35,046 nt of DNA. Source: Candidatus Nomurabacteria bacterium GW2011_GWA1_36_15 (lineage in GTDB: Bacteria; Patescibacteriota; Minisyncoccia; Phycocordibacterales; UBA9973). The translations under genes and the position numbers were made by a program. Below are positions 5,570 to 21,279 of the stretch, piece by piece (the first letter of the stretch is position 1; the number at the start of each line of letters is the position of its first letter). The stretch lies in contig LBRM01000002.1 in the NCBI GenBank assembly GCA_000991415.1, positions 1-35,046 on the forward strand, given 5' to 3'. A model generated the notes under the pieces. It was given only the letters and a program-made list of their open reading frames with translations, was not told where the DNA came from and searched no databases.

Positions 5570-7879
5570 TTAGGGTAGTATGTTAATAACTTTATTTTTA
5601 ACATAAATTATTTTTTTAGGATGTCCATCTATTAAATACTTTAAAACAGTCTGGTCAGAAAGAGCTTTTTTCTTTACCTCCTCTTCTTCTTCGTTCATTT
5701 GAATTATAATTTCAGTCCTAACTTTACCGTTTATTTGCACTGCGATTGTTATTTCCTGATCTTTAACTAAATTTTCGTCCCACTTTGGCCAACTTGAAAG
5801 ATCAATTAAATTTTTTTCTCCAAGCATTCGCCACAATTCTTCCGTTATATACGGTGCAAATGGAGCTAAAATTTGCAAAAATTTCTTATAATCTTCAATA
5901 CTTAAGGCCAGACCTTTTTGAGGATTTAAGGTCTGGCCTTTTTCTAAAGCTTTTTCCATCTCAGTTGTTAGTATCATCATAGCAGAAATAGTGGTATTAA
6001 AATGCATATTTTCTATATCTTCTGAAACTTTTTTGATTGTTTTATTTAAAATTTTTGAAATAGAAGAATTCTGAACGGTGTGGGTCCCACTCGGTACTCC
6101 GGGAAGGGTCAAGCCGGAAGAATTTTTCTGTTTCAAAAATTTATTTCCTATTCTCCAAACTTTTTCAATAAATCTTCTTGAACCAATAATACTTTCCGTA
6201 TTCCATGCTACAGATTCTTCAAAAGGTCCCATGAACATTTCATAAATACGTAAGGTGTCTGCGCCATAAGTTTTTACAATTTCATCCGGGTTTACAACAT
6301 TACCGACTGATTTTGACATTTTTACTCCTCCTTCTCCCAAAATCATCCCATGAGAAGTTCTTTTTTGGTAAGGTTCTGCTGTCGGCACCAGTTTTAAATC
6401 ATATAAAAACTTATGCCAAAAACGCGAATACAACAAATGTAGGGTGGTGTGTTCCATTCCGCCGTTGTACCAATCTACACCACCCTCTTGGGAGCTCGGC
6501 TCCCTCTTGGGAGCCGAGCTCCCAAGTAACCAGTACTTCAAATTTTTCATTGAAGCAAATTCTTTACTATTCTTCGGATCTGTGTATCTCAAATAATACC
6601 AAGAACTCCCTGCCCAGTTGGGCATAGTGTCTGTTTCCCTTTTTGCCTTGCCTTTGCACTTTGGGCATTTTGTATTTACCCATTTTGAAATTGAAGCTAG
6701 GGGAGACTCTCCACTATCTGTCGGTTTATAACTTTTTACTTCCGGCAATTTTACCGGTAAATCTTTTTCCGGCACCGGTATTAGCCCGCATTTTTCACAA
6801 CTAATTATCGGTATCGGTTCTCCCCAATATCTCTGTCTGGAAAAGACCCAATCTCGCAATTTAAAATGAGTAAATTTTTTTCCAAAATCTTCAAAACCCG
6901 CTTTTTTGTAATTTTCTACAATCGGCAGATTATATTTTTCCGCAAATTCCCTATCTCGAGCATCGTCTGCCGGCACACCCATTATAGCCCCGGTACCAAC
7001 TTCCGCCATAACATACTCTGCCTCCCAAACAGGAATTTCTTCCTTGGTTGCAGGATTGGTGACATAACGGCCAGTAAATTTATCTTTCTCTCCCGCTACC
7101 ACCACAAAAGTGGCACCAAAAATAGTTTCCGGCCTAGTGGTAAAAATTTCTATATCATCAAATTTAATTGAAACTCCATTCTTTTTTCCTATCCAATTTC
7201 TTTGTTGTGTTTTTACCCGTTCCGGATAATCAACTAAATTTAAATCCTTATCAAGTCTGTCAGCATATTTTGTAATAGCCAACATCCATTGTTTTTTTTC
7301 TCTTTTTTCTGTTTTACTTCCACAGCGATCGCAAACACCTCCTACAGCCTCTTCATTTGCTAAACCAATTTTACAAGAAGGACACCAATTTATAAAAGAT
7401 TTTGCTTTATACGCCAGACCTTTTTTAAAAAGCTGTAAAAATATCCACTGGGTCCATTTATAATATTTTGGGTCAGTGGTATTTATTTCTCGAGACCAAT
7501 CAAAAGAATAACCAAGAGCTTTTAGCTGTCTTCTAAATGTATCGGTATTTTTTTTGGTAACTATAGCCGGTTTCTTGCCAGTTTTAATGGCATAATTTTC
7601 GGTCGGAAGACCGAAAGCATCCCAACCGATAGGATATAAAACATTATACCCTTCCATCCTACGTTTACGAGAAATGATATCCATAGCGGTATTGCTACGA
7701 ATATGGCCTACATGCAATCCTTCGCCGGAAGGATACGGAAATTCGATTAGAGAATAAAATTTTTTTCCAGCTACTCGCCCTGAGCTCGTCGAAGGGTCTT
7801 TTGCTTGATAAATTTTTTTCTTTTCCCATTCATTTTGCCACTTTTTTTCAATTTTTTTATGATCGTAATTTTTCATCAA
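5570..7879 (-). CDS. leuS: Leucyl-tRNA synthetase
   Basis: 769 aa; HIGH-type YPSGEGLHVGHIRS, KMSKS motif GGVKMSKSVGNVVNPDEIV, TTRPET and VPADDARD editing-domain motifs, LRDWVFSRQRYWGEPIP. Confidence 0.95.
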   Translation of the reverse strand: MMKNYDHKKIEKKWQNEWEKKKIYQAKDPSTSSGRVAGKKFYSLIEFPYPSGEGLHVGHIRSNTAMDIISRKRRMEGYNVLYPIGWDAFGLPTENYAIKTGKKPAIVTKKNTDTFRRQLKALGYSFDWSREINTTDPKYYKWTQWIFLQLFKKGLAYKAKSFINWCPSCKIGLANEEAVGGVCDRCGSKTEKREKKQWMLAITKYADRLDKDLNLVDYPERVKTQQRNWIGKKNGVSIKFDDIEIFTTRPETIFGATFVVVAGEKDKFTGRYVTNPATKEEIPVWEAEYVMAEVGTGAIMGVPADDARDREFAEKYNLPIVENYKKAGFEDFGKKFTHFKLRDWVFSRQRYWGEPIPIISCEKCGLIPVPEKDLPVKLPEVKSYKPTDSGESPLASISKWVNTKCPKCKGKAKRETDTMPNWAGSSWYYLRYTDPKNSKEFASMKNLKYWLLGSSAPKREPSSQEGGVDWYNGGMEHTTLHLLYSRFWHKFLYDLKLVPTAEPYQKRTSHGMILGEGGVKMSKSVGNVVNPDEIVKTYGADTLRIYEMFMGPFEESVAWNTESIIGSRRFIEKVWRIGNKFLKQKNSSGLTLPGVPSGTHTVQNSSISKILNKTIKKVSEDIENMHFNTTISAMMILTTEMEKALEKGQTLNPQKGLALSIEDYKKFLQILAPFAPYITEELWRMLGEKNLIDLSSWPKWDENLVKDQEITIAVQINGKVRTEIIIQMNEEEEEVKKKALSDQTVLKYLIDGHPKKIIYVKNKVINILP
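5904..5940 (-). repeat. 37-bp palindromic element in leuS (AAGGCCAGACCTT-N11-AAGGTCTGGCCTT)
   Basis: Same 13-11-13 layout and AAGGYCNGRCCTT consensus; encodes KGQTLNPQKGLAL in a different frame. Confidence 0.85.
6488..6525 (-). repeat. 38-bp hairpin inserted in leuS (TTGGGAGCTCGGCTCCC-TCTT-GGGAGCCGAGCTCCCAA)
   Basis: Perfect 17-bp inverted repeat, 4-nt loop; each arm is itself a GGGAGC-NNN-GCTCCC palindrome; encodes LGSSAPKREPSSQE. Confidence 0.92.
7767..7798 (-). repeat. PSTSSG-type element near the leuS N-terminus
   Basis: GACCCTTCGACGAGCTCAGGGCGAGTAGCTGG encodes DPSTSSGRVAG; same frame as the lepA copy. Confidence 0.75.
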
Positions 7880-18493: not shown

Positions 18494-19093
18494 TTAGGGA
18501 GCTTGAACCTGTTGTATATAAGTACTCGTACTTGGTGCTACAGTTGGAGCTAAAGTCTGCATTTTTTGAAGAGTAATTTTATCAACTAAACCTGTTGCAG
18601 TAAGCCCTTGTTTTGTCTGAAATTGTTTAACTGCATTTGTGGTTATTGGACCATAATATCCAGTTGCTGTTGGATAAGTAAATGATCCTTCTTTCTTAAG
18701 AAAATCTTGAATTATTTTCACTCCATCTGTTCCATCTACTGGTTTTGGTCCGTCTGAGCAAATCATACCTTTTCCATTTTCCATATATCTACAACCTATT
18801 GTCCCATTATCAACAGTAGGTACTGGTGTTAATATTGTTCTTGATTCTAAAGCATTTACTCTGTTTTCTAAACTTTTTACTTTATCAGAAAGATCTATAA
18901 CTAAATTAAATACACAAGTAAGCTGATTCCTTAGTGTTTGAATCTCAGTATTTCCGGGTGAAACTGTCATACAACCGCCTGTAAAATAAGAAGACGTATC
19001 TGACGTTGTTGTTGAATCTGTTTGAGCAAACAAAACCACTGGTAAACTAATTGCTAATATTTCTACTAACACTAACATACGCATTTTTATCAT
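18494..19093 (-). CDS. Secreted protein with C-terminal peptidoglycan-binding (PG_binding_1) domain
   Basis: Start taken at MIKMRMLVLVEILAISLPVVLFAQ (signal peptide), not the longer ORF to 19330. C-terminus VKIIQDFLKKEGSFTYPTATGYYGPITTNAVKQFQTKQGLTATGLVDKITLQKM. Confidence 0.75.
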   Translation of the reverse strand: MIKMRMLVLVEILAISLPVVLFAQTDSTTTSDTSSYFTGGCMTVSPGNTEIQTLRNQLTCVFNLVIDLSDKVKSLENRVNALESRTILTPVPTVDNGTIGCRYMENGKGMICSDGPKPVDGTDGVKIIQDFLKKEGSFTYPTATGYYGPITTNAVKQFQTKQGLTATGLVDKITLQKMQTLAPTVAPSTSTYIQQVQAP

Positions 19094-19167
19094 ATTTTTT
19101 ATTTCACACAGAGCTCCTCTGTGTATTAATATACTAATAATAAAGACCTTTTTCTTTAAACACTGAA

Positions 19168-19198
19168 AGTATACCCCCCCCCCGAAGTGTTTTCGCAA
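19168..19198 (-). promoter_or_regulatory. Candidate promoter with G10 spacer tract for the 18494-19093 surface gene
   Basis: Minus strand TTGCGA-N19(including G10)-TATACT. Confidence 0.4.
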
Positions 19199-19214
19199 GA
19201 AAGTTATCCACAGA

Positions 19215-19268
19215 GAAAGTTGTGAGGAAATTGTGAGGAGTTGTGAGGTCTTGCCTAACAACTTTTTA
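19215..19268. repeat. Left REP-like hairpin region of RAYT locus: GTTGTGAGG units followed by GTTGTGAGGTCTTGCCTAACAACTTTTTA
   Basis: GTTGTGAGG/CCTAACAAC stem with TCTTG loop at 19240-19262; about three GTTGTGAGG-like units in tandem upstream. Confidence 0.85.
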
Positions 19269-19285
19269 TTTTGTAATATATAAAT

Positions 19286-19948
19286 ATGTCTATAAGAAAA
19301 ACTTCGTTTGTACCAGGTGAATATTATCATATATATAATAGAGGGAACAGTAAACAGAAAATTTTCCTTTCTAAAAAAGATTACGAGCGCTTCGTTGCTT
19401 TACTTTATGGTATAAATACAAATGAAAGTTTCAACTTTTTTAATTTGGAAAAAGGAGGCGGAATATTTTTGAGAGAAATAGAAAATCCATTGGTATCTAT
19501 TGGTGCATATTGTCTTATGCCAAACCATTTTCATCTTTTAATTACTCCCCTTTCAGAAGAAGGACTAAGTAAATTTATGCAAAAATTATCTACATCATAC
19601 GTTATGTATTTTAACGAAACACATAAAAGAACAGGTGGACTTTTTGAAGGAAAATTTAAATCAATTCACATGAAAACTGACAAGCAATTAAAATATCTTT
19701 TTTCCTATATCCATCTTAATCCAGTGAAATTTATAAATAGAAAATGGAAAGAAAAAGGTATAAGAAATTTAAAAACAACTTTTGAATTTTTGAACACTTA
19801 TTTGTATTCTAGTTTTTTGGATTATAGCGGTCAAAATAGAAGAGAAAATTTAATCATAGATCCTAGGGATTTTCCAGATTATTTTTCTTCTAAAGATTCT
19901 TTTAAAGAAGAAATTATTGATTGGCTGAGATATAAAGAGAAAAGTTGA
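19286..19948 (+). mobile_element. REP-associated tyrosine transposase (RAYT; Y1/HUH, IS200-like) CDS
   Basis: 220 aa; YYHIYNRGNSKQKIF, HUH motif YCLMPNHFHLLITP, GGLFEGKFKSIHM, YLFSYIHLNPVK; flanked by matching hairpin repeats. Confidence 0.92.
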
Positions 19949-19989
19949 GGTTGTGAGGTCTTGCCTAACAACTTCCTAACAACTTTTTA
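19942..19989. repeat. Right REP-like hairpin region of RAYT locus: GTTGTGAGGTCTTGCCTAACAACTTCCTAACAACTTTTTA
   Basis: Exact 25-nt match GTTGTGAGGTCTTGCCTAACAACTT (19950-19974) to the left copy, followed by a second CCTAACAACTTTTTA unit. Confidence 0.85.
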
Positions 19990-20575
19990 CAGTTTCAATC
20001 AGCTCTCCAAATCTGGAAATTATTTTTAGCGGGTTGCCTTTTTCTAATCTTTCTCTTTCGTGATAGCCAAAATCAACAGCAATGGTATTTATGCCTACTT
20101 TATTAGCTTCTAAAATATCCCCCAAGGTATCTGTAATAAAAACGCATTCTTCTTTTTTAAAATTAAAATCATTTAGAACTTTTTTAAATTTGTGACTTTT
20201 AAGTTTGTGTGTTTCAAGACCATACAAAAAAGAGAATAAATTTCCAACTCCATTGGTCTGAAGATAATCTCTAATTCCATACTCATAACACGAAGAAATT
20301 ATGCCCAAAGTATAATCTTCTGATAGATTCTCCAATGTTTTTCTTACCTCATCTTTTATTTTACGTGTTTTTCTTGTGTTGCTTAAACATTTTAAAAAAT
20401 CAAACCCGGTATCTCTGCATTTTAATTTTTCTCTTTCTAAATGAATATTACCTTCATATATTTTCTTATGCTCTTCTCTGGTAAGACAAGAAATTTTTTT
20501 CCCATTCAACTCAAAACTTAGTTCATAGTTATTATCTATCACTCCGTCGAAATCAAACATGATTAATTTAATCAT
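19976..20575 (-). CDS. HAD-superfamily hydrolase/phosphatase
   Basis: 199 aa; MIKLIMFDFDGVIDN (motif I DxD), IISSCYEYGIRDYL, VFITDTLGDILEANKVGINTIAVDFGYHERERLEKGNPLKII. Confidence 0.85.
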   Translation of the reverse strand: MIKLIMFDFDGVIDNNYELSFELNGKKISCLTREEHKKIYEGNIHLEREKLKCRDTGFDFLKCLSNTRKTRKIKDEVRKTLENLSEDYTLGIISSCYEYGIRDYLQTNGVGNLFSFLYGLETHKLKSHKFKKVLNDFNFKKEECVFITDTLGDILEANKVGINTIAVDFGYHERERLEKGNPLKIISRFGELIETVKSC

Positions 20576-20580
20576 ATATT

Positions 20581-21279
20581 TCAGCCTAAGTTTTTAAATT
20601 CTTCTATTGTCCCAACAATATCATCTGTATTAAAAATGGTTGAACCAATAATGAGTTTCATTGCTCCTGCCTCTATCAGTAGAGGCACGGTTTCAAAATT
20701 CACTCCTCCATCAACAGAAATTACAAGATCTGGAAATCTTTCTTTTAATATTTTTATATTTTCTAAAACTTTTTTATTAAACTCTTGTCCCTGAAATCCA
20801 ACTTTTTCTATACCCATAAATTGCACAAAATCAACATTATTAATTAAAGGAAAAATTTGTTCAAGAGATGTATTTATATTAATAGATATGCCTATTTTCA
20901 TCATTTCTCTTATATACATATCTATACCTTCAAGAAAATTCTTAAATTCTTTTAAATCACCTACAGCTTCAAGATGAAAAATAATATTTTTCGCTCCCAA
21001 TTTTGTATAAAGATCAAAATTTTTCACCGCATCTACAACCATAAGATCAAATTCAAAATCAATATCTTCCCAAAAAGGCATTCCTTCTTCCTCATTCAAA
21101 ATTCTATGAAAATTATAATCTTCGGCTCCCCCTGTAGAAAAGGGCCAGGTTTTAGAGGGCACAAAAATCCCATCACAAATATCTATCTGAACAACAGGAA
21201 CTATTCCACGTACTAGTGCGATTTTATTTTTTAAATCTTCGTAATTTTTCGGTAATATGGCTGGAATTATTTCAATCAT
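20581..21279 (-). CDS. Ribulose-phosphate 3-epimerase-like TIM barrel protein
   Basis: 232 aa; IIPAILPKNYEDL, VQIDICDGIFVPSKTWPF, ISVDGGVNFETVPLLIEAGAMKLIIGSTIFN. Confidence 0.8.
   Translation of the reverse strand: MIEIIPAILPKNYEDLKNKIALVRGIVPVVQIDICDGIFVPSKTWPFSTGGAEDYNFHRILNEEEGMPFWEDIDFEFDLMVVDAVKNFDLYTKLGAKNIIFHLEAVGDLKEFKNFLEGIDMYIREMMKIGISININTSLEQIFPLINNVDFVQFMGIEKVGFQGQEFNKKVLENIKILKERFPDLVISVDGGVNFETVPLLIEAGAMKLIIGSTIFNTDDIVGTIEEFKNLG

Follow-up and report, generated by a model that had tools for sequence, protein, structure and literature searches.

A probable REPtron in a Nomurabacteria-type genome: a RAYT gene between cognate palindromes, the left of which probably carries part of its promoter

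The closest described relatives of the locus presented here are the REPtrons, in which a TnpAREP transposase (RAYT) is associated with REP sequences (Nunvar 2010, PMC2817692; PMC8266576; Quentin 2018, PMC6006769). Dispersal of the repeats is usual in these systems but not required, REPtrons having been reported in species without the repeat family. It is an open question how RAYTs come to be expressed, and another how their specificity follows changes in the palindromes; the clade described below bears on both. REP-driven expression has been judged unsupported, REPtron layouts being variable (Di Nocera 2013, PMC3733652). The available part of the main text of the 2018 survey (PMC6006769) contains no mention of Parcubacteria, Nomurabacteria or Candidatus, and a search of open-licence papers found no literature on RAYTs in the Nomurabacteria group.

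The window (the whole 35,046-nt stretch of DNA analysed) comes from a bacterium with a very small genome, one of the candidate phyla radiation; it belongs to a Nomurabacteria-type genus, and its nearest relatives among named genomes are Candidatus Nomurabacteria and kin. In the window and assembly sequence, a RAYT gene is flanked on both sides by an identical 25-nt quasi-palindrome in direct orientation. The two copies of GTTGTGAGGTCTTGCCTAACAACTT (19240-19264 and 19950-19974) match at 100%, as the initial annotation had reported; each reads GTTGTGAGG-TCTTG-CCTAACAAC, its stem containing a single G.A mismatch. The same annotation correctly described about three left-arm units in a row (at 19219, 19230 and 19240) and one extra right-arm unit (19975-19983), and the span that it gave to the element, 19204-19989, is fair: it opens roughly 15 nt ahead of the first unit and closes with the right T-run. 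The features are as follows.

18494-19090, minus strand: peptidoglycan-binding-domain protein, between tktN and the RAYT gene; missing from the empty site in genomes G003 and G028
19219-19227, plus strand: extra left half-arm 1, GTTGTGAGG
19230-19238, plus strand: extra left half-arm 2, ATTGTGAGG, with one mismatch
19240-19262, plus strand: left palindrome, GTTGTGAGG-TCTTG-CCTAACAAC, with core AGGTCTTGCCT at 19246-19256; relatives carry homologous left palindromes
19251-19256, plus strand: probable -35 box TTGCCT in the palindrome apex, suggested by relatives
19274-19279, plus strand: probable -10 box TAATAT (weak match, 4/6) after a 17-nt spacer and 6 nt ahead of the start codon (leaderless), suggested by sequence and relatives
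19286-19948, plus strand: RAYT, a TnpAREP-type Y1 HUH transposase of 220 aa
19950-19972, plus strand: right palindrome, same as the left, in direct orientation
19975-19983, plus strand: extra right half-arm, CCTAACAAC, overlapping the last codons and stop of the minus-strand HAD gene
19976-20575, minus strand: HAD hydrolase, neighbouring gene
20581-21279, minus strand (operon): ribulose-phosphate 3-epimerase (rpe), next after HAD

REPtrons or TIRtrons, as Quentin 2018 (PMC6006769) and Di Nocera 2013 (PMC3733652) describe them, have this layout. Folded as DNA, the 23-nt palindrome gives a hairpin of 5+3 bp in which one G.A pair is mismatched; its energy is -4.6 kcal/mol (z -3.4). At the left end the outermost half-arm makes another fold possible, with -6.7 kcal/mol for the end as a whole, and the nested alternative hairpins proposed earlier are therefore real on paper. 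The T-rich flanks and the intergenic position in the window could also be those of transcription terminators or transcript-protecting RNA hairpins having no link to the transposase. We hold this to be very improbable: a terminator scan found no terminator-like site and an Rfam search no match, the two ends match each other in an element-specific way and co-evolve with the protein, and relatives have palindromes inside coding genes.

The transposase matches Pfam Y1_Tnp (1.1e-8), no other Pfam domain being found, and NCBIfam REP_Tyr_transpos (NF047646; 3.1e-12). The latter score, 46.6 bits, lies below the cut-off of 80, which is a property of the model and not a defining biological feature; the clade is a divergent one. 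The HUH motif (H81-F82-H83) and the catalytic Y141, within YIHLNP (Y141-IHL-N145-P146), are made of conserved residues, and Y...NP is given as the class-2 signature in PMC6006769. Direct sequence searching found no homologous solved structure. The AF2 model (pLDDT 88.7) has as its top PDB match 4er8_A (rank 1, E 2.1e-6), a RAYT bound to a REP hairpin. By motif and modelled fold, the enzyme is a class-2 TnpAREP. Family, fold and relatives agree on a RAYT with cognate REP-like hairpins, and we put at about 80% the probability that the unit is a REPtron, composed of a class-2 Y1 HUH RAYT and its own cognate palindromes as the two ends.

Among relatives, 100 non-redundant loci were compared, each by its 150 nt upstream against its 150 nt downstream of the gene; these loci were picked by protein similarity and are not independent. 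The longest word common to both ends has a median length of 21 nt within an element and 8 nt between elements, and reaches at least 14 nt in 81% of the former comparisons against 3% of the latter. The ends are direct in 38 loci and inverted in 43. The palindrome counts given here cover palindromes with a shared centre at both ends, loci with a decayed end being left out. The initial annotation had named absence of the repeats from relatives' RAYT loci as a sign against its reading; the related loci in fact carry matching palindromes of their own. Their loop-proximal stem is nearly always AGG/CCT (core AGG-loop-CCT), while every element has outer arms of its own. Counted from the apex, positions 6-10 are paired in 90-98% of elements; shuffling the arms among elements brings this down to about 30%. 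Arm similarity between elements declines with transposase identity. On the RAYT tree (a quick one), loop type and core change 18 times, compared with 36 after shuffling (0/200 shuffles as low). The outer arms, then, drift fast yet stay paired and equal at both ends, and we infer that core and inner stem are probably what the enzyme recognises. In each palindrome a single DNA strand would fold into the hairpin that the enzyme presumably binds; most of what it reads there would be the conserved core and the inner stem, and cleavage and rejoining of DNA would take place beside the hairpin.

In most loci the left palindrome stands at a nearly constant distance from the gene. In the group with the TTGCCT core, most loci have the start codon 28-31 nt past TTGCCT and most members a TATAAT-like box 16-18 nt after it, the commonest arrangement being TTGCCT-N16-17-TATAAT. 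Palindrome centre and start codon are 33.5-36.5 nt apart in most of 64 loci, and 31 of these 64 have an exact TATAAT no more than 25 nt before the start (3.9 expected from shuffles). Where the arms are of the CCTTGACA type, it is the right arm that holds the best -35 hexamer, which can be as good as a perfect TTGACA. The window's own boxes are weak (TTGCCT-17-TAATAT, 8/12), and a consensus promoter scan of the window did not list the pair. The TATAAT excess and the fixed spacing in relatives make it probable that the RAYT transcript is leaderless and has its -35 box in the left palindrome, though the fixed distance could come partly from shared descent. Because this box would lie at the palindrome apex, hairpin binding could shut off the gene; such autorepression is a guess that follows from the promoter overlap.

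Promoter spacing also bears on the extra half-arms. At the mismatched position the extra left units have G, the left-arm letter, and the extra right unit has A, the right-arm letter, which indicates that each unit was copied in tandem from the arm on its own side and is not the reverse complement of the opposite arm. We take the units for tandem duplications that proceed from the foot of the hairpin in the direction of its apex. Half-arms of this sort, with no second complete palindrome, accompany 19/126 RAYT palindromes but only 2/100 of the remaining palindromes in the own genome (P=8e-4); a third match among the latter was not counted as control, being itself RAYT-associated. At left ends, an extra left arm precedes the palindrome in 6 cases and an extra right arm follows it in 1; right ends show 6 of each. 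Duplicating the right arm of a left-end palindrome would move -35 and -10 further apart, which accounts for the asymmetry described in the initial annotation; in the single exception, L010, the spacer is indeed longer. Solo palindromes can have such half-arms as well (C4:64341 in the own genome; G001). The counts are consistent with a left end that would tolerate extra left arms but not extra right arms, which would separate -35 from -10. Alternatively, the half-arms could be functional: outer and inner half-arm might compete to pair with the opposite arm, the outer one serving as guide or switch for cleavage. Their enrichment over other palindromes would suit such a role, as would the alternative fold possible at the window's left end. 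So would their presence on two solo copies in G001 and, in L014 and L047, at each end of the element. Yet 107 of the 126 palindromes lack them, spacers and register vary, and promoter spacing accounts for the left/right bias, so a function in cleavage seems unlikely to us.

The host locus is a minus-strand operon, tktC-tktN-HAD-rpe. Comparison with the empty site in relatives, a check proposed in the initial annotation, supports insertion: G003 and G028 have the syntenic tktC-tktN-HAD-rpe with nothing between tktN and HAD, whereas the window carries the peptidoglycan-binding protein gene and the RAYT there. Target duplication is not evident. The right end of the element abuts the HAD frame, whose final codons and stop lie inside the extra right half-arm; the HAD C-terminus reads VKSC* in the window and VKNLN* at the empty site. 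A RAYT 78% identical to that of the window sits between tktN and rpe in G034, another (76%) adjoins rpe in G059, and the three form a clade with full SH-aLRT support. Strict vertical descent of the tkt-rpe RAYT was considered and not adopted, since the G034 RAYT is 78% identical while the adjacent rpe is 66%, and since G003 is without the RAYT though its rpe is 78% identical; transfer or loss is possible. The tkt-rpe region (window 18494-21279; L183, L176) holds different RAYTs or RAYT pieces in G000, G034, G059, G019 and G027, and is a possible insertion hot spot.

In its own 617,508-bp assembly (22 contigs), the 23-nt unit occurs only twice, both times at the gene, even with 3 mismatches allowed; the search for non-autonomous hairpins suggested earlier yielded no copy beyond those two. 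A third genomic AGGTCTTGCCT, at C15:7494, is without matching arms and appears to be a chance occurrence. The absence of further copies, named beforehand as an argument against the REP interpretation, is thus real in this genome, but sister genomes have cognate dispersed copies. The AGGTCTTGCCT core is found 16 times in G034, 26 in G030, 16 in G001 and 30 in G012 (0-2 for the control pattern). G034, which has the sister transposase, contains about five solo copies whose arm is of the TCGTTAGG type found at its tkt-rpe RAYT; one of them has the same G.A mismatch as the window palindrome. Other relatives have up to 15 dispersed copies, many in frame in housekeeping genes, and G030 has several inverted doublets that are REPIN-like. 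Open frames contain 35/55 solo loci (64%; 73% for random own-genome windows), which means that the palindromes are not extragenic. A single frame, giving -RQDL- or -RQGL-, is used by 23/35 in-frame solo loci (tallied by hand); judged by eye from conserved motifs, the host proteins look like RsmA, LigA, RsmI, RNase HI, TsaD, RuvB, LeuRS and others. Solo AGGCAAGACCT palindromes read in frame as -RQDL- are seen in numerous housekeeping genes, at L206-L245 and L271-L286 (G034, G030, G001, G040, G046, G059). One site in an RsmA loop (L217, L276, L288) has a palindrome in G034, G046 and G004 with different arms, which may reflect arm turnover or repeated insertion; other genomes hold other short repeats there.

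Five RAYTs are present in the genome, the other four at most 48% identical to that of the window and each with its own palindrome. The palindrome of the C5 RAYT (G000 C5:16441-16917), ACTTGGGAGCTCGGCTCCCAAGT, also occurs in frame inside its own gene (YQLGSRAPKSSK); a REP inside the RAYT reading frame is described for subclass 2.4 of Quentin 2018 (PMC6006769). Inverted doublets of the C5 family are found at C3:26650 and at 6487-6526 of the window. The latter lies in leuS (5570-7879, minus strand), where LLGSSAPKREPSSQEGG replaces the TP of the relatives' KYWTPVDWY; some relatives carry other repeats at this site. The initial annotation held the REP sequences to be unrelated to the in-frame palindromes. 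The two do belong to different sequence families, but since the leuS palindrome is one of the C5 RAYT family, the palindromes in frame likewise count as REPs, cognate to another of the genome's RAYTs; moreover, the AGGTCTTGCCT family itself is in frame in genes of relatives. Solo RAYT-type palindromes with no RAYT nearby are also present in G000 at C4:61403, C7:16790 and C4:64341, one with a duplicated half-arm.

A pair of RAYT copies in L317 (G004 C3:96000-100600) is 95.5% identical, the common part starting exactly at the left palindrome. The pair is a young duplication and adjoins another perfect 312-bp repeat. This duplication speaks for the earlier description of the unit as autonomous, while the lack of dispersed copies and the divergence of the other RAYTs speak against it. 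The duplication would also be expected of an insertion sequence of the IS200/IS605 kind, moving whole and having the subterminal hairpins simply as its ends, and so would an HUH Y1 enzyme with a hairpin at each end and an empty site without evident target duplication. We nevertheless regard such an element as quite unlikely here, given that the Y...NP motif and the fold match TnpAREP best, that the multiple near-identical whole-element copies typical of IS200/IS605 are absent from the genome, where the other RAYTs have diverged from this one, and that palindromes disperse without the gene.

Under the REPtron reading, the element is a lone, non-proliferating copy in its own genome, and related elements have spread their palindromes. 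More tentatively, at rather less than even odds, the observations may be joined into a single scheme: a promoter built into the element's own REP hairpin, so that binding site, element end and -35 box coincide, would make a self-limiting selfish element, the palindromes of which enter essential genes in frame, their arms changing in step with the resident transposase and rewriting host residues. The clade is large and of fairly constant layout, with the left palindrome over a probable promoter. Its roughly one hundred diverged natural enzyme-hairpin pairs with private arms, from uncultured bacteria with very small genomes, offer a panel for tests of specificity and autoregulation; the promoter in the hairpin and the in-frame dispersal are the parts most worth testing.

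Among known systems, Quentin subclass 2.6 (RAYT group 5, mostly Bacteroidetes), compared by its description in the available text, similarly has atypical flanking hairpins without GTAG and copies elsewhere, in a different lineage. TIRtrons (TIRYT; Di Nocera 2013, PMC3733652) share with the locus a RAYT-like enzyme between matching non-GTAG repeats, some self-complementary and often not dispersed. Many TIRtrons, however, share GGGGWSAS, and most are of subclass 2.1 with a C-terminal HTH extension (PMC3733652); here the protein has 220 aa, Pfam gives Y1_Tnp alone, the ends lack the GGGGWSAS motif, and the palindromes are of AGG-loop-CCT type with ends direct about as often as inverted. With REPtrons the locus has in common the class-2 Y1 enzyme, the gene placed between cognate palindromes, one palindrome type per enzyme, low enzyme copy number and palindrome-enzyme co-evolution, as well as inverted doublets and in-frame REPs in relatives. 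It differs in its near-perfect palindromes with AGG-loop-CCT core and private arms, in the overlap of the left palindrome with the probable promoter, in its Nomurabacteria host, and in a REP that is dispersed in sister genomes but not in its own. Neither end has GTAG or GTRG at the 5' hairpin foot, which is not constant in relatives either, so this is not a GTAG REP. Rickettsia palindromic elements are palindromes lying in frame in genes. In both cases housekeeping proteins encoded by small genomes carry palindromes in frame (here, proteins of relatives and that of leuS); the present palindromes, in contrast, match those flanking a transposase gene.
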